Assembly (NCBI GenBank): GCA_031292655.1
Contig: JARLGO010000274.1
Span: forward strand, 1-32,433
Source of the DNA: Geothrix sp.
GTDB lineage: Bacteria; Acidobacteriota; Holophagae; Holophagales; Holophagaceae
Length of the DNA stretch: 32,433 nucleotides
Direction of reading: 5' to 3'
Shown here: in pieces, positions 2,266 to 12,050 of the stretch
Position numbering within the stretch: position 1 is the first letter of the stretch
Layout of the letters: the number at the start of each line of letters is the position of its first letter
The notes under the pieces: generated by a model
The model's database searches: none
What the model saw: the letters and a program-made list of their open reading frames with translations, nothing else
Told to the model about the DNA's origin: nothing
Translations under genes and position numbers: made by a program

Positions 2266-3621
2266 ATGGCACTACCCACCAAGATCCCGCCGAGGGTTTC
2301 CGTGGCCCGATCCGGGGCCCTCCGCGTAGCCGCCCTCTATGCCGGCTGCTCGGGACTCTGGATCCTGCTGTCGGACCGCGTGGTCGAGGCCCTGATTCAC
2401 ACCCCCTCGACCATGACCCGGGTCAGCATCGCGAAAGGATGGGTCTTCGTGGCGGTCACCGCGGCGATGCTCTTCGTCCTGGTGAAGCGTCTGGTGGATG
2501 GTGTCGCCAGCCACGAGGCCAAGCTCCAGGCCCTCATCCACGCCATCCCCGATCTCGTGTGGCTGAAGGATCCCGAAGGGGTCTACCTGAGCTGCAACGG
2601 GGCCTTTGAACGGGCCTACGGAGCCACGGAGGCCGAGATCATCGGACGGACGGACTACGACTTCGTCCCGCGGGCGGAGGCGGACGCATTTCGCGAGAAC
2701 GACCGGCGGGCGATCGCGGCGGGCGGGACCCGGCAGCAGGAAGAATGGCTCACCCCCGCCGCCTCGAATCAATCGCGGCGCTTCGAAACGCTCAAGACAC
2801 CGATTTACGACGGCCAGGGAGGACTGGTGGGGGTCCTGGGCATCGGGCGGGACGTCACGGAACATCATCGCCTGGTCGCCGAGCAGACCAGACTGCAGGC
2901 CCAGCTGCACCAGGCCCAGAAAATGGAACTGGTGGGCCGCTTCGCTGGCGGGGTGGCCCACGACTACAACAACATGCTGGGGGTGATCCTCGCCAATGCG
3001 GATCTGGCGCTTGACCGGCTCCCCCCGAATCAGCCGGAGCGGAAACACCTGGTCGAAATCACGCGGGCGGCTCGCCACTCGGCGGAACTGACGGGCCAAC
3101 TGCTGGCGTTCGCGCGCCAGCAGCCGGTGGACCCCCGCCTGATGGATCTCAATGAGGCCATGACGGGCATTTTGGATGTGCTGGGAAGGCTGGTGAGGCC
3201 CGAGATCCGGATGACGTGGACGCCGGAAACAGGGGCCTGGAAAGTCATGATGGATCCGACCCAGCTCAATCAGGTGCTGACCAACCTGGTGGTGAATGCC
3301 CGGGATGCCATCGTGGGGCCCGGGCAGATCGAATTGTCCAGCTGCAACCAGACCCTGACGGAGGCGGACTGCGCTTCGCTGGCGGAGGCCGTTCCCGGCG
3401 ACTACCTATGCCTCAGGGTCAGGGACAGCGGTTCCGGCATGCCGCCCGAGCTGGTGGCGCGAATCTTCGAACCGTTCTTCACGACCAAGCCGGCCGGCCG
3501 GGGTACCGGTCTGGGCCTGGCCATGGTCCACGGCATCGTGAAGCAAAACCGGGGCACCATCCGGGTCGAAAGCGAACCCGGTCTCGGCACCTGTTTCCAG
3601 ATCTTCCTGCCGAGGGCCTGA
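2266..3621 (+). CDS. Membrane-associated PAS-domain sensor histidine kinase
   Basis: N-terminal hydrophobic segments, PAS region (IPDLVWLKDPEGVYLSCNGAFERAYG), H-box FAGGVAHDYNNMLGVILANADLAL, N-box LTNLVVNARDAI, DSGSGMPPE, GRGTGLGLAMVHGIV. Confidence 0.9.
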   Translation: MALPTKIPPRVSVARSGALRVAALYAGCSGLWILLSDRVVEALIHTPSTMTRVSIAKGWVFVAVTAAMLFVLVKRLVDGVASHEAKLQALIHAIPDLVWLKDPEGVYLSCNGAFERAYGATEAEIIGRTDYDFVPRAEADAFRENDRRAIAAGGTRQQEEWLTPAASNQSRRFETLKTPIYDGQGGLVGVLGIGRDVTEHHRLVAEQTRLQAQLHQAQKMELVGRFAGGVAHDYNNMLGVILANADLALDRLPPNQPERKHLVEITRAARHSAELTGQLLAFARQQPVDPRLMDLNEAMTGILDVLGRLVRPEIRMTWTPETGAWKVMMDPTQLNQVLTNLVVNARDAIVGPGQIELSSCNQTLTEADCASLAEAVPGDYLCLRVRDSGSGMPPELVARIFEPFFTTKPAGRGTGLGLAMVHGIVKQNRGTIRVESEPGLGTCFQIFLPRA

Positions 3622-3626
3622 ACGGC

Positions 3627-4751
3627 CTATTTCCTCAGCTTCAGCAGGTCCAGGACGATCACCAGGGCCATCAGGGAGGCCAGCAGCAGGAAGCCGCCGG
3701 TGAGGATCTTCTCCTTGAGCTCGATGGTGAGATCCCGGCGGCGCAGCTTCTCGAAGGTCAGCAGGGCCATGTGACCTCCGTCGAGGGCGGGGATGGGCAG
3801 GGCGTTGATCAGGCCCAGCTGCAGGCTGATGGCGCCGCACATGAAGAGGAAGACGTCCCAGCCGGTCTTGGCGGCATGACTGCCCTGACGGATGATGCCG
3901 ATGGGCCCGGACACCTCCGAGCTCTTGGCCTGGAAGCTGATGAGTCGCTTGAGGAAGCCAAGCACCTGTCCGCTCATGCGCCAGGAGGTGGTCACGGCGT
4001 AGCGTCCGCCCACCAGAACGTCGCTGGGGCGGTAGGCTCGACGTTCCAGTGGTATGGGCATCGGATAGGGCTGGAAACCGAGACGGCCTTTGCCGCCATC
4101 GAGGCGGGGGGTAAGCGGAAATTCCAAAGGCATACCTTCCCGGGTGATCCGGAAGGGCACGGGCTGGCCGGGGTGGGCCTGGATGTAGGCCACGGCCGTC
4201 TCCCACTCTGTGGCCGGGAAACTCAGGTCGCCGATGCCGCGAAGTTCGTCACCCACCTTGAGGCCGCCCTGCTCGGCGGCACTGCCGGGCACCACCTCGA
4301 CGACGGTCCAGGAGTCCTTCACCTTGGTGACCCGGGCTTGGTCGGCGCCCACGAAGGTGAACAGGATCAGGGTGGTGGCCAGGTTCGCCAGGATGCCGCC
4401 GCTGTAGAAGAGCATGCGCTTGCCGTAGGGCTGCTGGAGGAAGCCGTAGGGATCATCCGCCCCGGGTTCCTCGGGGTTGAAGCCTGCAAGCTTGACGTAG
4501 CCGCCCAGGGGCAGGACGGACAGACGGACATCGGTCTCCCGCCACTTGAACCCGAAGAGCCGGGACCCGAAGCCCAGGGAGAAGACCTCCACGGGCATGC
4601 CCATGTACTTGGCCGCGAGGAAGTGCCCTCCCTCGTGCAGGAAGACCAGGCCGCCGAGCATCAGCACGGGACCCCAGAAACCCACGCTGGGCCACTTCAA
4701 GGACACGATGGAGACGAGGGCGAGGGAAAGGACGAGGGGCAGGCGCTTCAT
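3627..4751 (-). CDS. rseP: RIP (site-2-type) zinc metalloprotease with PDZ domain
   Basis: HEGGHFLAAKYMGMPVEVFSLGFG active-site motif, PDZ-like region, C-terminal NALPIPALDGGH motif. Confidence 0.93.
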   Translation of the reverse strand: MKRLPLVLSLALVSIVSLKWPSVGFWGPVLMLGGLVFLHEGGHFLAAKYMGMPVEVFSLGFGSRLFGFKWRETDVRLSVLPLGGYVKLAGFNPEEPGADDPYGFLQQPYGKRMLFYSGGILANLATTLILFTFVGADQARVTKVKDSWTVVEVVPGSAAEQGGLKVGDELRGIGDLSFPATEWETAVAYIQAHPGQPVPFRITREGMPLEFPLTPRLDGGKGRLGFQPYPMPIPLERRAYRPSDVLVGGRYAVTTSWRMSGQVLGFLKRLISFQAKSSEVSGPIGIIRQGSHAAKTGWDVFLFMCGAISLQLGLINALPIPALDGGHMALLTFEKLRRRDLTIELKEKILTGGFLLLASLMALVIVLDLLKLRK

Positions 4752-4766
4752 GGATATCCAAATGGT

Positions 4767-5921
4767 TCAGGCCCGGGCTTGGACCCACCCTTCAGCATGA
4801 CGCCTCGCGGCCAGGTCCGCATCCAACACTTGGGCGAGGGACCCCAGGGGGGAGGCCGGGAGCTTGGCCAGGACCTCCCGGTTGCAGGCCTGGATGTCCC
4901 AGAACCCGAGGCGCCCCTGGAGAAAAGCGGCCACGGCCACCTCATTGGCGGCGTTCAACAGGGCCGGGGCCGTGCCCCCCTCCCTCAGGGCCTGGAAGGC
5001 CAGGGCCAGGCAGGGGAAGCGCTCCAGATCGGGGGCCTCGAAGGTCCACTGCCGGGCTTCATCCCAGGGGTAGGGGGCCACGGGGCCCGGCTGCTTGTCC
5101 GGGTAGAGCAGGCAGTACTGGATGGGCAGTTTCATATCGTTGGCACAGACCTGTAGCTGGTAGCTGCCATCGTGGAAGCCCACCATGGCGTGCACTTGGC
5201 TCTGGGGGTGGACGGTCACGGCCACCTGGTCGGGGGCAAGGCCGAACAGGACGGAGGCCTCGATGACCTCCAGTCCCTTGTTCATGAGGGTGGCGCTGTC
5301 GATGGTGATCTTCGGCCCCATCTTCCAAGTGGGGTGGTTCAGGGCTTCCTCGATGGTGGCGGCCTGGATGCGCGCCAGGGGCCAGTCGCGGAAGGGTCCT
5401 CCGCTGGCGGTGATGCGGACCTCCCGGATGGTGGCGGGGGCCCGGCCCGACAGGAGCTGGTGCAGGGCGGCATGTTCGCTGTCCACGGGCAGCAGCTCGC
5501 CGCCGCCCGCCTGGGCCGCCTCGTGCATGAGGGCCCCGCCGACCACGAGCGACTCCTTGTTGGCCACGCAGACCCGGCGGCCGGCTCGGAGGGCGGCTTC
5601 GGTGCTGGCCAGGCCCGCGCTGCCCACGATGGCGGCGACCACCGTATCGATGTCGGCATGGAGGGCGCAGGCCAGCAGCCCCTCCGGGCCCCAGTGCAGG
5701 TCGGGCCGGTAGGAAAGGCTGGAACGCAGCCACTCCGCATCCGCCCTCGAGCCCACGGACACGCAGCGGGGTCGGAAGGCCTCGCACTGGACCTTCAGCA
5801 GGTCCCGGTTGCGGCCGGCCGCCAGGGCCACCACCGACAGCTTCTCGGGATGGGCGCTCACCACGTCCAGGGTGGAGGTGCCGATGCTCCCCGTGGAGCC
5901 GAGGATGGCGAGGGCTCGCAC
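4767..5921 (-). CDS. dxr: 1-deoxy-D-xylulose 5-phosphate reductoisomerase
   Basis: MRALAILGSTGSIGTSTLDVV..., VANKESLVVGG, ITASGGPFRDW, HPTWKMGPKITIDSATLMNKGLEVIEA. Confidence 0.96.
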   Translation of the reverse strand: MRALAILGSTGSIGTSTLDVVSAHPEKLSVVALAAGRNRDLLKVQCEAFRPRCVSVGSRADAEWLRSSLSYRPDLHWGPEGLLACALHADIDTVVAAIVGSAGLASTEAALRAGRRVCVANKESLVVGGALMHEAAQAGGGELLPVDSEHAALHQLLSGRAPATIREVRITASGGPFRDWPLARIQAATIEEALNHPTWKMGPKITIDSATLMNKGLEVIEASVLFGLAPDQVAVTVHPQSQVHAMVGFHDGSYQLQVCANDMKLPIQYCLLYPDKQPGPVAPYPWDEARQWTFEAPDLERFPCLALAFQALREGGTAPALLNAANEVAVAAFLQGRLGFWDIQACNREVLAKLPASPLGSLAQVLDADLAARRHAEGWVQARA

Positions 5922-6809
5922 CTAATTGAACCCCTTCACGAAGTGCAGGTAGGCATAGAGCACCGGGGCCGCGAAGACCAGGCTGTCCACCCGGTCCAGC
6001 ATGCCGCCATGGCCCGGGATGGACACCCCCCCGACGCAGGAGTCCTTCACCCCTGCGCTGCGCTTCCAGGTGCTCTCCACCAGATCGCCCAGCTGGCCCA
6101 CGATGCCCAGGAGCAGGCCCAGGGCCAGGGCATCCACGGCGGTCCATTCCCCGCACACCGTGGCGACCATCAGGAAGGCCCCGAGGAGGTTGCCCCCCAG
6201 GTTGCCCAGGGCGCCCTCCCAGCTCTTCTTGGGGCTGACCCGGGGCGCGAGCTTGTGCTTGCCGAAGAAGGTGCCCACGAAGTAGGCGGCGCTATCCCCG
6301 AACCAGGTGATGATGAAGAGGGCCAGGATGAGGCGGCTGCCGGTCTTGGGCAGGGTGCCCTGGAGCATGAAGAGCTTCTGCTGGAAGCCCAGGCCGAAGC
6401 CCATGTAGAGGGCCCCGAGCCAGGTGATGGCCTGGCTGGGCAGGGCCTCCTCCAGCTTCGGGTCGGAAAGCAGGGCCCCGAAGTGGATGAGGAGGGCGCC
6501 GCCGGTAAACACCAGCCACAGCGGCAGGGGGTCCTGGTTTCCCGTGGCCAGGAAAAAGTGGGCGAGGATCCCCCAGGCCACCAGGACGCCGGACACCAAG
6601 GAGGGGTTGAAACCCCGCACCCGGGCCATGAGCGTCAGTTCGCGCACACCCATGACCATGGCCCCGGCCATGGCGGCCAGGTAGGTCCAAGGGGCCCAGG
6701 GCGCGTCCCCGAACCAGAGGAGGCTGAAGAAGAAGAGGCCGAAGACCAGGGCCGAGGTGATCCGCACGGTCAGGTTCTTGGTATCCACCTTGGGCGTGGT
6801 CCGTTCCAT
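5922..6809 (-). CDS. cdsA: Phosphatidate cytidylyltransferase
   Basis: Polytopic membrane protein with CdsA signature region (WFGDSAAYFVGTFFGKHKLAPRVSPKKSWEGALGN; SIPGHGGMLDRVDSL). Confidence 0.95.
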   Translation of the reverse strand: MERTTPKVDTKNLTVRITSALVFGLFFFSLLWFGDAPWAPWTYLAAMAGAMVMGVRELTLMARVRGFNPSLVSGVLVAWGILAHFFLATGNQDPLPLWLVFTGGALLIHFGALLSDPKLEEALPSQAITWLGALYMGFGLGFQQKLFMLQGTLPKTGSRLILALFIITWFGDSAAYFVGTFFGKHKLAPRVSPKKSWEGALGNLGGNLLGAFLMVATVCGEWTAVDALALGLLLGIVGQLGDLVESTWKRSAGVKDSCVGGVSIPGHGGMLDRVDSLVFAAPVLYAYLHFVKGFN

Positions 6810-7495
6810 CAGATTCCCCCGAACCGTCGTTCACGCTGGGTGTAGTCCTCCAGCGCGTCCTGCAGGTCCGCAGGGCTGAAGTCTGGCCAAAGGAGGTCGG
6901 TCATGTAGAGCTCGGCATAGGCGGATTGCCAGAGCAGGAAGTTGGAGATGCGGTGCTCGCCGCTGGTGCGGATGAGCAGGTCCACGTCGGGCACACCGGC
7001 GGTCCAGAGGCGGGCCCCCAGGGCGGCCTCGTCGACCTCTTCGGGACGGAGGCCATCCTGCACGCAGCGCCGGGCGGCCTGGGCCAATTCCAGCCTCGAG
7101 CCGTAGTTGACCGCGAGATGGAAGGTCATGCCCCGGTGCTGGGCCGTGGCGCGCTCCAGGTCCCTGACATCGGCCTGGACGCCCGCGGGCATGCCCTCGA
7201 TCGCCCCCAGGTGGTGGAAGCGGATGTCCTTCTTGGCGAGCTGGTGGACAAACATGCGCAAGTACATGCGAAGGAGGGCCATGAGGGCCCCCACTTCGAG
7301 GGGGGGGCGCTTCCAGTTCTCCGTGGAGAAGGCATAGAGGCTCAGATGCCGGATGCCCGCATCCGAGGCCGCCTCCAGGATCCGTTCCACCGCCAGGACA
7401 CCCGCCTTGTGCCCCTTGATGCGGGGCCAGCCCCGCTGGGAGGCCCAACGGCCATTGCCGTCCATAATGATGGCGACGTGGGTCGGGACGGTCAT
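6809..7495 (-). CDS. uppS: Undecaprenyl/polyprenyl diphosphate synthase (cis-prenyltransferase)
   Basis: THVAIIMDGNGRWASQRGWPRIKGHKAG, LYAFSTENWKRP, DLLIRTSGEHRISNFLLWQSAYAEL; overlaps cdsA start by 1 bp. Confidence 0.96.
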   Translation of the reverse strand: MTVPTHVAIIMDGNGRWASQRGWPRIKGHKAGVLAVERILEAASDAGIRHLSLYAFSTENWKRPPLEVGALMALLRMYLRMFVHQLAKKDIRFHHLGAIEGMPAGVQADVRDLERATAQHRGMTFHLAVNYGSRLELAQAARRCVQDGLRPEEVDEAALGARLWTAGVPDVDLLIRTSGEHRISNFLLWQSAYAELYMTDLLWPDFSPADLQDALEDYTQRERRFGGI

Positions 7496-7605
7496 CGCGT
7501 GCCTAAAGGCCGGTCCAGCCGGGTGTTCCCACGGGGGAGGCCTCGCGCATGCCCAAAGGGCATACCGAGAAGATGATGGCGACGTGGGTCGGGACGGTCA
7601 TCGCG
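7467..7605. repeat. 33-bp perfect direct repeat duplicating the uppS start region (copies 7467-7499 and 7573-7605)
   Basis: ATGATGGCGACGTGGGTCGGGACGGTCATCGCG occurs identically at both positions, offset 106 bp. Confidence 0.95.
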
Positions 7606-7726: not shown

Positions 7727-10114
7727 ATGGTTCAATTCAACACCCGAGCCAACGAGATCCTGCTCAAGCTGGTCTACTACGGGCCCGGCTTGTCGGGGAA
7801 GACCACCAACCTGCAGTCCCTGCATGCGATGTGCTCGGATACCCAGCGGGGCGAGATGTTCTCCGTGAACACCCAGGAGGACCGCACCCTCTTTTTCGAT
7901 CTGCTGCCCATCAACCTGGGCTACATCTACGGCAATGCCATCCACCTGCAGATCTATACCGTGCCTGGCCAGGTGCAGTACGACGCCAGCCGCCGGGTGG
8001 TGCTGGGCGGCGCCGACGGCGTGGTCTTCGTGGCGGATTCCAGCGAAGCGAAGATGCAGGATAACGTGGACTCGCTTTCGAACCTGTACCACAACCTCAA
8101 TGCTAACCGGCTGAATATAAAACAGATCCCGTTTGTCATCCAGTACAATAAACGGGACCTGCCGGACGCCATGGCCGTGGGGGTCATGAACCGGCGGCTC
8201 AACTTCCGCAGCGTCCCGTATTTCGAGTCCGTGGCCAATCGCGGCACGGGCGTGATGGACACATTCCTGGCCATCACCCGGGAGACCGTGAGCTACACCT
8301 TCAAGAAGTACCATCTGGACAAGAAGATCAAGGACTTCGAGGAGATGCTGAACCTCATCGAGTCCAATGTCCGCACCAGCATGCAGGAGCTGCCGCCCCC
8401 CCCGGAGGCGGGGGCGTCGCCATCGCCGGCCGCGGAAACCACCATCCTCCGCCACAGCAACGTGAGCGTGGCCGACCTGGTGCCAGGGAAGGTCGCGGAT
8501 GCCCAGGAACTGCTGGAGGACGCCCTCAAGTCCAACATGGAAACGGCCCGGCTCTACTCCGAGCTGAAGCAGGCCAAGGACTCGCTGGAGAAAAAGAACG
8601 AGGAGATGAGCCAGCTCTACGCGCAACTGGACCGGGCGAACAAAGACAACCTAAAGACTCGGAAGTATTTGGAGGGCCTGGTTCAAAACATCGGCGAGGC
8701 GGTCATCTCCTATTCGCCGGAAGGGAAGATCCTCACCTGGAACATGGCCGCCGAGCGCATCTTCGGGTATTCCCGTCCCGAGATCGTGGGCCGGAACATG
8801 GCCCAGCTGGTCCCGGATGGCCTGATCGGCGAACTGGAACAGGTGGCCCAGCAGGTCGGGCGGGGCCAGGTGATCCAGGACATGGCCACCACAAGGCTCC
8901 GCAAGGGGGGGGTCGCCTTTCCGGCCAGCATCACCTACGCGCCCGTCTCCGGGAGCGATGACCGGGTGCTGGCCTACTCGGCCCTCGTGCGCGACATGAC
9001 GGAAAAGCAGGATCTCCAGGAGCGCCTGGTCTATTCCCAGAAGCGGGAGGCCCTGGGCCGTCTGGTCCCCCCCTTGTTCCACGAGGTCTCCAACCGGCTG
9101 ACACCCGTGCTCCTCGAGTCCCGGCTGATCGCGGAATCCGCCATGGATCCCGACCAGGCCGAACAGGCGGGGCGCCTCGTGAAGGCCGTGGAATCGATTC
9201 AGGCCCTCCTTCTTCCGCTCCAGGCGATCATGTACCCGCCCAGTCCCAATCCCCTCAGGGTGCAGCTGAATGACCTGGTGCGGCAGGCCGTCTCCCTGGT
9301 GGAAGCCAAGGCCCACCAGATGGGGGCCACGGTGGAATTGAACCTGGACCCCTCCCTGCCCGAAACGGCCCTCGATCCCGAGCTCCTGGTCAAGGCCCTC
9401 ACGAATCTTCTGCAAAATGGCCTGCAGGCCATGGCCCTCAGCCCGATGAAGCGCCTCCGGGTGGCGACCCGGACTTCCGGCGATGGCCTCCAGGTGGTGA
9501 TTCAAGACACGGGACCCGCCCTGGATGAGCGGCGCCAGGCCGAGCTGTTCGACCTGGCCAGCGCCACGACCACCGAGGCGCTGGGCCTTCCCATTGCCGA
9601 GGTCATCACGCGCCAGCACGGGGGGCGTCTCAGCGCCCGCAGCCAGGAGGGACTGGGGAATGCCTTCCTGCTGGAACTGCCCAGCCAGGGGGCCCAGGTC
9701 CTGCCCCCCGCCGCCCCTGTTCCGGTGGGGTTGAAGGGCATCCGGGCCCTGGTGGTGGATGACGAGACCTTCCTGCTGGAATGTCTCGTGGATGCCCTGG
9801 GTGCCTGGGGCGTGGAGGTCACCTCCAGTTCCCGGGGGGACGAAGCCATCCAGAAGCTGGAAAGCGGGACCTTCGATTTGATCGTGTGCGATATCCGGAT
9901 GCCGGGCCTGTCGGGGGTGGACCTGTTCGACTGGCTGAAGGCCCAGCGGCCAGCCATGACCCGGAGGATCCTCTACACCACCGGCGATACCTTCGACACG
10001 AAAACCCGGGAATTCCTGGAATTGAGCCGGGTCCCCTATTTGGGTAAGCCCTTCGATCTAAAGCAGCTCAAGCAAAGTCTTGAGCGCCTTCTAGAGACTC
10101 CGGTCGAGGCCTGA
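7727..10114 (+). CDS. MglA-like small GTPase fused to coiled-coil, PAS, (degenerate) histidine kinase and receiver domain
   Basis: N-term LLKLVYYGPGLSGKTTNLQSLH (P-loop), YTVPGQVQYDASRRVVLGGADGVVFVADSS, VIQYNKRDLPD (NKxD); PAS (GLVQNIGEAVISYSPEGKILTWNMAAERIFGYSRPEIVGRN); H-box region LGRLVPPLFHEVSNRLTPV; C-term REC (ALVVDDETFLLECL...DLIVCDIRMPGLSGVDLF...YLGKPFDLKQL). One uninterrupted 795-aa ORF. Confidence 0.92.
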   Translation: MVQFNTRANEILLKLVYYGPGLSGKTTNLQSLHAMCSDTQRGEMFSVNTQEDRTLFFDLLPINLGYIYGNAIHLQIYTVPGQVQYDASRRVVLGGADGVVFVADSSEAKMQDNVDSLSNLYHNLNANRLNIKQIPFVIQYNKRDLPDAMAVGVMNRRLNFRSVPYFESVANRGTGVMDTFLAITRETVSYTFKKYHLDKKIKDFEEMLNLIESNVRTSMQELPPPPEAGASPSPAAETTILRHSNVSVADLVPGKVADAQELLEDALKSNMETARLYSELKQAKDSLEKKNEEMSQLYAQLDRANKDNLKTRKYLEGLVQNIGEAVISYSPEGKILTWNMAAERIFGYSRPEIVGRNMAQLVPDGLIGELEQVAQQVGRGQVIQDMATTRLRKGGVAFPASITYAPVSGSDDRVLAYSALVRDMTEKQDLQERLVYSQKREALGRLVPPLFHEVSNRLTPVLLESRLIAESAMDPDQAEQAGRLVKAVESIQALLLPLQAIMYPPSPNPLRVQLNDLVRQAVSLVEAKAHQMGATVELNLDPSLPETALDPELLVKALTNLLQNGLQAMALSPMKRLRVATRTSGDGLQVVIQDTGPALDERRQAELFDLASATTTEALGLPIAEVITRQHGGRLSARSQEGLGNAFLLELPSQGAQVLPPAAPVPVGLKGIRALVVDDETFLLECLVDALGAWGVEVTSSSRGDEAIQKLESGTFDLIVCDIRMPGLSGVDLFDWLKAQRPAMTRRILYTTGDTFDTKTREFLELSRVPYLGKPFDLKQLKQSLERLLETPVEA

Positions 10115-10170: not shown

Positions 10171-11286
10171 ATGCAACGACGTTGGGTCATGGCCATCCTG
10201 GTGGCCTCGGGCCTTCTGGCCCAGGCACCGCCCCCTGCACCGATCCCGGTTCCCGTCCAGGCCCCCGCACCCGGGCAAAAGCCCACCCCGGCGGCTGCCG
10301 AGGCGCCGGCTCCGCCGAAGGCAGAGGAGCAGCCGCTCGAGCCCAAGGCCTTCGAGCAGCTCCGCCCCACCAAGCGGAAACTGGCCTATACCCTCTACCG
10401 CGCGGCCCTTGCCGCCCATGAGCTGGGCTACTACCGCAGCCACCCCAAGGCCATCGAGGTGCGGGAGGCCCTGGAGACCCTCGTGAGGGCCAAGCTGGAG
10501 ATTCCGGAAAAGGCCTCAAAGGCCCTTCCGGCCGCCGAGGCCTACCTGGCGAAGCTCTACGCCAACCATGGCCTCTATGACGCAGAGGGGAAGAAGCTCC
10601 TGCTCGAAGGCACCTGGAAGGACCTCCAGGGAGCGGCCCGGGCGGCGGCCAAGACCGGTCCCAAGGGCCTGGAGCCCCGGCTCCTGAAGCTCAAGGGCCT
10701 GCTCTTCGACCCCCAGGTGGACGCCATCGCCCCCAGCTGGGCCGAGCCCGAGGCCCCTGCCAAGGGCAAGAAGGCCAAGGCCCCGAAGGGTCCCAAAGAA
10801 CCCGAGGGTTTCGCGGCCCAGAAGGCCATGACGGCCCTGTGGGTGAAGCGGGCCCAGGCTTGGATCGAGAACACGCCCCAGGTCGTGGAGGTCAAGGGCG
10901 AGAAGAAGACCCGCCGCCGACCGAATCCTGCTCAAGCCAAGGCGCTGGACGACCTCCTCGCCTGGTTCGCCAAGGATGACCTGGACCTGCTGCGCGACCC
11001 CGGCTTCGGCTGGCTGGACCTGCGGCGACTCGGCCCGGTGCCGGGAGCGGGCCTGCTCACCAGGGCCGCCGACATCGCCGCCTCCAAGGCCCCCGAGGGC
11101 CCCGCGGGTGACCTGCCCCTGCTGCCCGTCCTCGAGCCCGTGCTGGGCGAAAGCAAGTTCAGTAAAGGCGAGGAGAAGCGGCTCGTCCTTGTCGAGGTGA
11201 AGCAGGGTCCTCCGGCGTCGAGCCTCACCGAGCAGGCGGCGGCCATTGAAAAGCTGGGTCGCAGCCGGGAGTTCGACGTCAAGTAG
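10171..11286 (+). CDS. Hypothetical protein with signal peptide and Pro/Ala-rich N-terminus
   Basis: MQRRWVMAILVASGLLAQAPPPAPIPVPVQ...; no recognised domain; ends just before a terminator hairpin. Confidence 0.75.
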   Translation: MQRRWVMAILVASGLLAQAPPPAPIPVPVQAPAPGQKPTPAAAEAPAPPKAEEQPLEPKAFEQLRPTKRKLAYTLYRAALAAHELGYYRSHPKAIEVREALETLVRAKLEIPEKASKALPAAEAYLAKLYANHGLYDAEGKKLLLEGTWKDLQGAARAAAKTGPKGLEPRLLKLKGLLFDPQVDAIAPSWAEPEAPAKGKKAKAPKGPKEPEGFAAQKAMTALWVKRAQAWIENTPQVVEVKGEKKTRRRPNPAQAKALDDLLAWFAKDDLDLLRDPGFGWLDLRRLGPVPGAGLLTRAADIAASKAPEGPAGDLPLLPVLEPVLGESKFSKGEEKRLVLVEVKQGPPASSLTEQAAAIEKLGRSREFDVK

Positions 11287-11301
11287 GACTTTCTCCCCCA
11301 T

Positions 11302-11331
11302 GAAAACGGGGCGCCCATGCGCCCCGTTTTC
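11302..11331. terminator. Bidirectional rho-independent-like terminator between convergent genes
   Basis: GAAAACGGGGCGC-CCAT-GCGCCCCGTTTTC perfect 13-bp stem with A/T-rich flanks. Confidence 0.85.
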
Positions 11332-12050
11332 TATTCCTCGCCCTTGCGCTGCTTCCCTTCCGGATCGAACTGGTAGCCGACGCTGCGGATGGTGTGGACC
11401 CACCGCGGGTGGTGCGGATCGTCCTCCATGACGCGGCGGATGCGGACGATGAAGTTGTCCACGGTGCGGCTGGTGGGGTAGGCGTCCTCGCCCCAGACCT
11501 TGTCCAGGATGTCCGTGCGGCTCACCACCTGGCCAGGCCGCTCCATGAGGAGCTTCAAGATCATGCATTCCTTCACGCCCAGCTGGAAGGCGCCCCCGGG
11601 CCCCTCGCCGCAGTAATTGTCAAAGTCCACCCAGTAGGGACCGTAGGCCTGACGGCTGCTGGTCTCCCGGTTCTTGTACCAGGACTCGCGCCGCAGGATG
11701 GCGCGCACCCGCAGCAGCAGCTCGCGCACCTGGAAGGGTTTGCCCAGGTAGTCATCGGCGCCGGTCTCGAAACCGTGGACCCGGTCGTCGTCTGTGTTCT
11801 TGGCCGTGAGAAAGAGGATGGGCGTGAAATTCTTGGCCTCGCGCACCTTCTCGCAGATGGTGAAGCCGTCCATGCCGGGGAGCATGACGTCGAGGATGAC
11901 CAGATCGTAGGTCTCCGCCAGGATCTGCTTCAGGGCCTGATCCCCCCGGGAGATCCAGGTGCAGGCAAGGCCCTCCATCTCCAGGTTGAGCTGGATGCCT
12001 TCGGCGAGGCTGAGCTCGTCTTCCACCAGCAGGATCTTGGGCTCGGACAC
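11331..12050 (-). CDS. OmpR/PhoB-family response regulator
   Basis: ILLVEDELSLAEGI...DLVILDVMLPGMDGF...FLTAKN...LGKPF plus winged-helix effector (DILDKVWGEDAYPTSRTVDNFIVRIRR...IRSVGYQF). Confidence 0.95.
   Translation of the reverse strand: MSEPKILLVEDELSLAEGIQLNLEMEGLACTWISRGDQALKQILAETYDLVILDVMLPGMDGFTICEKVREAKNFTPILFLTAKNTDDDRVHGFETGADDYLGKPFQVRELLLRVRAILRRESWYKNRETSSRQAYGPYWVDFDNYCGEGPGGAFQLGVKECMILKLLMERPGQVVSRTDILDKVWGEDAYPTSRTVDNFIVRIRRVMEDDPHHPRWVHTIRSVGYQFDPEGKQRKGEE

Follow-up and report, generated by a model that had tools for sequence, protein, structure and literature searches.

An MglA-type GTPase fused in one polypeptide to a PAS domain, a kinase-like module, and a receiver is encoded within a 32,433-nucleotide stretch of DNA (the window; contig JARLGO010000274.1, assembly GCA_031292655.1) from a Geothrix-like soil and sediment bacterium. 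As judged from sequence comparisons, this is a genuine, old, and conserved gene of the Holophagaceae, shared by Geothrix and its relatives. We propose, with a probability of about 0.5, that the protein is a cytosolic sensor in which the GTP/GDP state of MglA is the output, the pseudokinase is a scaffold, and the receiver is phosphorylated by another kinase, and that it acts on type IV pili. How two-component signaling sets the state of a bacterial Ras-like GTPase is an open question: in Myxococcus, the link passes through several proteins, and in conservons the phosphorylation target of the kinase CvnA has been stated to be unknown (PMC13343842). Because the link is covalent in the fusion protein, its coupling should be measurable directly on one purified protein. 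Moreover, the family shows kinase catalytic motifs decaying and the GTPase staying intact.

Domain architecture and conservation of the fusion protein

The gene (Table 1) is open throughout, with no internal stop. Pfam profiles recover, after the GTPase, the PAS (E = 7.6e-12), HATPase_c, and Response_reg domains (E values of the latter two in Table 1), in this order. An AlphaFold model of the 795-residue protein (pLDDT 77, pTM 0.38) has the same domain order, namely GTPase, disordered linker, single helix, PAS, DHp, CA, and REC, and portions of it resemble PDB structures of PAS-histidine-kinases and of MglA; with a pTM of only 0.38, the model does not predict the relative placement of the domains or dimerization. 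These analyses agree with the preliminary description, made from the letters alone, of a single 795-residue frame holding MglA, PAS, kinase-like, and receiver regions in this order, and they bear out its view that a nucleotide switch and phospho-signaling modules are physically fused. The long helix that follows the linker is not peculiar to this protein, as motifs related to LLEDALKSNMETARLYSEL come after the GTPase in other fused types too.

Table 1. Features of the fusion gene, with positions counted in the window
Feature	Residues	Position	Strand	Evidence
Whole fusion gene (MglA GTPase, long helix, PAS, kinase-like DHp/CA, receiver; 795 aa)		7727..10114	+	open frame, domains, orthologues, synteny
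MglA Group 1 GTPase domain	1-190	7727..8296	+	phmmer to MglA 6h17/6hjh/5ymx, E about 1e-55
P-loop, GPGLSGKTT	19-27	7781..7807	+	invariant in 57-sequence family alignment
Arg53, intrinsic arginine finger of Group 1 MglA (switch-1)	53	7883..7885	+	DRTLFFD in 34/34 fused members
G3 motif, TVPGQ (residue 84 is Gln, vs Phe in stand-alone MglA)	78-82	7958..7972	+	
G4 motif, NKRD	141-144	8147..8158	+	
Variable, partly disordered linker	191-258	8297..8500	+	low pLDDT at 226-256; conservation below that of GTPase
Single long helix (62 residues), conserved motif LLEDALKSNMETARLYSEL	259-320	8501..8686	+	AlphaFold; conservation
PAS domain	313-430	8663..9016	+	Pfam PAS_9/PAS/PAS_4
DHp (HisKA-like) helices, His452 then E-x-x-N	431-510	9017..9256	+	His in 37/40 receiver-bearing orthologues
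Degenerate ATP-binding (HATPase_c) domain, without GxGLGL lid, G1 second Gly lost	511-655	9257..9691	+	Pfam E 3.7e-13; motif counts
Receiver domain, phospho-acceptor Asp722	672-790	9740..10096	+	Pfam E 5e-19

A full-length orthologue is present in 32 of 36 same-genus genomes, is cut by contig ends in two more, and has no match in the remaining two. Independent records with an orthologue include the isolates Geothrix fermentans, G. rubra, G. limicola, G. campi, and Holophaga foetida, and the position of the gene is fixed (syntenic) across the Holophagaceae. The source is a draft Holophagaceae genome in 522 contigs, which by itself would leave room for an assembly or annotation artefact. However, the same open frame in the same synteny in many independent genomes, isolates among them, excludes the frameshift or assembly join that the preliminary description had named among the possible refutations, and we regard the probability of an artefact as negligible.

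The MglA Group 1 GTPase domain

Residues 5-189 match Myxococcus xanthus MglA (PDB 6h17) over the whole domain with an E value of 2.4e-55 and with every G motif present, so that the N terminus is indeed MglA-like, as had been read from its motifs. Group 1 MglA proteins are defined by the P-loop, a switch-1 arginine beside the G2 threonine, TVPGQ, and NKxD (PMC4316618), and the fusion protein's GTPase possesses all of these. The switch-1 arginine is the intrinsic arginine finger, whose role in Group 1 MglA has been described (PMC4316618, PMC6876712). Across 40 non-identical receiver-bearing orthologues, the GTPase motifs do not vary, and the GTPase is the best conserved of the domains (mean identity 94.5%).

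While the fusion protein shares G1, the switch-1 arginine, TVPGQ, and NKRD with MglA of M. xanthus and Thermus over a 185-residue match, known MglAs are single-domain proteins of about 195 residues that are usually coupled to mglB. At 795 residues and away from mglB, the protein falls outside the class of small MglB-coupled GTPases (at most 240 residues, at most four genes from mglB). A further difference lies in switch-2, where position 84 is Phe in 29/29 other MglAs, whereas it is Gln (as here), His, Lys, or Arg in 34/34 fused ones. Because Phe84 is replaced across the fused clade, MglB or MglA effectors may not recognize the fused GTPases, and the change suggests altered partner recognition.

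The kinase-like module and the receiver

The DHp region retains the H-box histidine of hybrid histidine kinases (His452), and an adjacent [ED]xxN is found in 39 of 40 orthologues with a receiver versus none of 10 without one, the latter set comprising two lineages only and including f3 members that align poorly at this site. E-x-x-N next to the His in HisKA-type proteins is a phosphatase motif. The CA domain that follows is degenerate. A complete ATP site has the N-box, a DxGxG G1 motif, and a GxGLGL G2 lid; here G1 reads D-x-G-x-A and there is no G2. All 40 receiver-bearing orthologues lack the G2 lid and have lost the second Gly of G1, seven of the 40 have lost the N-box Asn, and the mean identity of the CA domain (61%) is the lowest of all domains. 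The kinase module is probably dead rather than an active kinase, although it may bind ATP weakly, since HATPase_c scores above the Pfam cut-off. An H-box/ATPase-like region had been noted at the outset; its His452 and HATPase_c profile are confirmed, and its key ATP-binding motifs are absent. Likewise, the label "PAS-kinase-receiver" names domains that are present but overstates the middle one, because a kinase with a broken ATP site is probably inactive.

The receiver, by contrast with the kinase module, is intact, as it had looked at first. Its acidic pair (D678 and D679), phospho-acceptor (D722), T/S position (T751), and Lys (K774) are kept in 40/40 receiver-bearing orthologues, with a mean identity of 74% over the domain. 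The base of the Holophagaceae tree lacks the resolution to distinguish a receiver gained once and then lost from one gained late. As a possible source of the receiver, we considered fusion of a stand-alone receiver neighboring the f3 gene, and rejected it: such a gene was seen nearby at one f3 locus only (L077), and no similarity to the receiver of the fusion was detected.

Shorter relatives and genomic neighborhood

Within the same class, the family f2 has MglA-helix-PAS alone (406-413 aa), and f3 has MglA-helix-PAS followed by a degenerate kinase (about 630 aa). The receiver is missing from three Holophagaceae MAGs (L059, L061, and L066), and a fourth (L067, 431 aa) has neither kinase nor receiver at the same syntenic place. 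In these comparisons, the GTPase-helix-PAS core stays while the C-terminal modules vary between relatives.

In the Holophagaceae, the divergent genes upstream of the fusion gene are uppS-cdsA-dxr-rseP (isoprenoid/lipid genes); on the downstream side, nearly every locus of sufficient length carries an OmpR-type regulator and a glycosyltransferase. We looked for MglB and pilus genes near the fusion gene and found none. The preliminary description had suggested searching the genome for both: MglB and PilT-family genes are indeed present, but the genome's only Robl_LC7 (MglB) match is on another contig, where it adjoins an ordinary stand-alone mglA. MglB occurs in 57 of 60 relatives and PilT-family ATPase genes in 59 of 60, the fusion's own genome included; being common to most of the phylum, they are weak evidence for a link to the fusion.

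A link to pili comes from f2. Two f2 genera have genomes in which the MglA-PAS orthologue begins about 15-20 bases after a pilin gene, which is preceded by pilC, and pilB is visible in two loci (L083 and L084), giving a pilB-pilC-pilin cluster; in L086 the pilin is present, but the upstream gene is FHA-T2SSE instead. The f2 orthologue is thus the last gene of a pilB-pilC-pilin operon, an arrangement that points to type IV pili, and in this sister family there is a link to an MglA-type output. Because the Holophagaceae gene adjoins uppS-cdsA-dxr-rseP and not pilus genes, it is the shorter f2 orthologue that supplies the pilus link.

Several other elements surround the gene. A perfect 33-nt direct repeat (7467-7499 and 7573-7605, 106 bases apart) lies at and upstream of the uppS start, and a close relative (L038, 7632-7883) has three copies spaced by 106-107 bases; a segment of about 106 bases is thus repeated between uppS and the fusion gene. 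Located 56 bases past the fusion gene, 10171-11286 (+) encodes an Ala/Pro-rich putative secreted protein of no Pfam family, conserved at 56-81% in Geothrix loci and weakly (25-30%) in deeper Holophagaceae. Three open frames (5172-6845, 6926-7576, and 10516-11568) were discarded, as they lie on the opposite strand of annotated genes or of the conserved gene downstream, match no Pfam family, and have an implausible composition. A promoter and terminator scan gave nothing beyond chance.

Signaling model and alternatives

Architecture and conservation can be read directly from the sequences; from them we infer what the protein may sense, the direction of coupling, and its target. With the GTPase intact and the kinase half broken, the switch, and not the kinase, is suggested to send the signal. 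In our model, the protein would dimerize through the long helix and the DHp bundle, and the PAS domain, together with receiver phosphorylation, would shift the geometry of the helix, the receiver obtaining its phosphate in trans from another kinase. Helix geometry would in turn set the ease of GTP loading, hydrolysis, or presentation by the GTPase. The kinase module would serve as a scaffold for the dimer and would probably dephosphorylate the receiver through its retained E-x-x-N, and the GTP-bound form would, like Myxococcus MglA, most likely target the type IV pilus machinery.

Other readings place the output elsewhere. Phosphotransferases such as Spo0B combine a degenerate CA domain with a functional DHp, and the conservation of His452 (37/40) and of the receiver residues (40/40) would suit a phosphorelay node in which the DHp, with its His452, shuttles phosphate between receiver and partners in an HPt-like manner, with the GTPase tuning this traffic instead of being the output. 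We consider this unlikely, since Holophaga-type members carry Asn at the 452 site yet retain the receiver, and since the GTPase is the best conserved domain and persists with PAS alone in f2 and L067. Another candidate is an active hybrid sensor kinase, for which the GTPase would be an extra input domain and an ordinary His-Asp phosphorelay the output. Hybrid PAS histidine kinases of the EspA/EspC and FixL type have the same PAS-DHp-CA-REC order and supply the best sequence and fold matches to residues 312-790, with an overall resemblance to EspA/EspC over residues 319-790; moreover, a full set of kinase motifs is found in some GAF-type relatives, which adjoin receiver and kinase genes. However, the fusion adds an N-terminal GTPase to this plan and is without the ATP lid motif, and the loss of the G2 lid and of the second G1 Gly in all 40 orthologues, the loss of the N-box Asn in some, and the poor conservation of CA make an active kinase quite improbable.

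The preliminary description had suggested that the fusion could be a one-protein polarity or motility switch, which in this reading would replace MglA, RomR, and the Frz system. The joining of MglA and a receiver in a single chain, the PilT-family genes of the genome, and the f2 pilus operon linkage accord with such a role, but the genome has a separate MglA beside MglB, the switch-2 surface of the fusion differs, and its local neighbors are isoprenoid/lipid genes, not motility genes; a replacement of the whole system is thus quite improbable.

Our preferred reading, a PAS sensor with MglA output, has partial precedents in trans. RomR resembles the fusion in having a receiver that works with MglA: it does so in trans (PMC3441718), and RomR/RomX is an MglA GEF (PMC9481161). 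In the fusion, the receiver is instead in cis and C-terminal, ending at residue 790 of 795 with no linker or RomR-C after it. In the conservons of Actinomycetota (CvnA kinase, CvnB roadblock, and CvnD GTPase), a histidine kinase likewise feeds an MglA-family GTPase and not a classic response regulator (PMC4316618, PMC13343842). These, however, are separate proteins of an operon with a Group 2 MglA, whereas the present protein carries a Group 1 MglA in fusion with a degenerate kinase; nor is there a cvnA-cvnB-cvnC-cvnD cluster at the locus, as no roadblock or separate GTPase gene adjoins the fusion. By analogy, the fusion may work like a covalent MglA plus RomR, or like a conservon kinase-GTPase pair.

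Sensor-fused MglAs in the Acidobacteriota

The architecture is not a one-off. In 247 Acidobacteriota genomes, whose long MglA matches were read individually, we found other sensor-fused types, namely MglA-GAF-kinase, MglA-GAF, and MglA-pseudokinase. With the PAS types included, sensor-fused MglAs span at least ten Acidobacteriota families, members having been read in f1, f2, f3, f5, f6, f8, f17, f34, f38, and f44, and a GAF-type query gave matches spanning GTPase and GAF in further families. The MglA-GAF-kinase, MglA-GAF, and MglA-pseudokinase proteins share the GTPase clade and the long post-GTPase helix region of the Holophagaceae fusion, but have GAF in place of PAS, no receiver, and, in some, intact kinase motifs. 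In a scan of contigs for close relatives, full relatives were confined to Holophagaceae-type Acidobacteriota, and the single match of a plasmid search was a Deinococcus MglA-like protein, in its GTPase part only.

In a GTPase-domain tree, the fused types all fall into a single clade (100/100), separate from the other groups that the tree took in, namely stand-alone MglAs (including M. xanthus MglA) and MglAs with long disordered tails; the split is still 100/100 after removal of long-branch rows. The P-loop, DRTLFFD, TVPGQ, and NK[RQ]D are present in 34/34 fused GTPases. Their kinase motifs range from intact (L091, L133, L135, and L141) to absent (L089), with H-box, N-box, or G2 motifs gone in most of the kinase modules examined. 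Since the four intact members keep these motifs, the pseudokinase claim is lineage-specific. Somewhat more tentatively than for the Holophagaceae protein, we suggest that this clade uses MglA output instead of phosphotransfer: a GTPase-helix-sensor core would have been fixed, kinase and receiver modules would have been recruited and repeatedly decayed or lost, and the resulting cis-controlled GTPases may drive type IV pili or other surface machines.

The main census of bacterial small GTPases left out proteins above 240 aa, which in the MglA subclade numbered 488 as compared with 449 small ones (PMC4316618), and the fused family was among what this length cut-off removed. We found no papers on MglA in Geothrix, or on MglA with a GAF domain or histidine kinase in Acidobacteria, although subscription journals may hold one, and the sensor-fused group is apparently undescribed.

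The surroundings of the fused genes differ between families. In f8, two single receivers and a further kinase share an operon-like run with a fusion whose kinase is intact. At L091 (2878-7333, +) and L133 (343-4828, -), two single receivers are followed by an MglA-GAF-HisKA-HATPase with intact motifs and then by a GAF kinase. In f17, the fusion gene and a TPR-DUF4388 gene overlap. At L139, an MglA-GAF-kinase gene (2573-4879, +) overlaps the start of TPR-DUF4388 (4879-6432, +), a candidate effector pair; DUF4388 is presumably PATAN. PATAN-domain genes have been reported near mglA (PMC4316618).

We also observed a second class of Group 1 MglA, with a long Pro/acid-rich, disordered-looking tail and a short, beta-rich-looking end segment. 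These tailed MglAs (L099, 1066-2487, +; also L144, L147, L148, L152, and L093, with one gene in the window's genome) fall on the stand-alone side of the GTPase tree. Finally, N- and C-terminal MglA fragments lie at contig edges in G000 (C350:21-395 and C7:4883-5194), possibly representing one further, split mglA.
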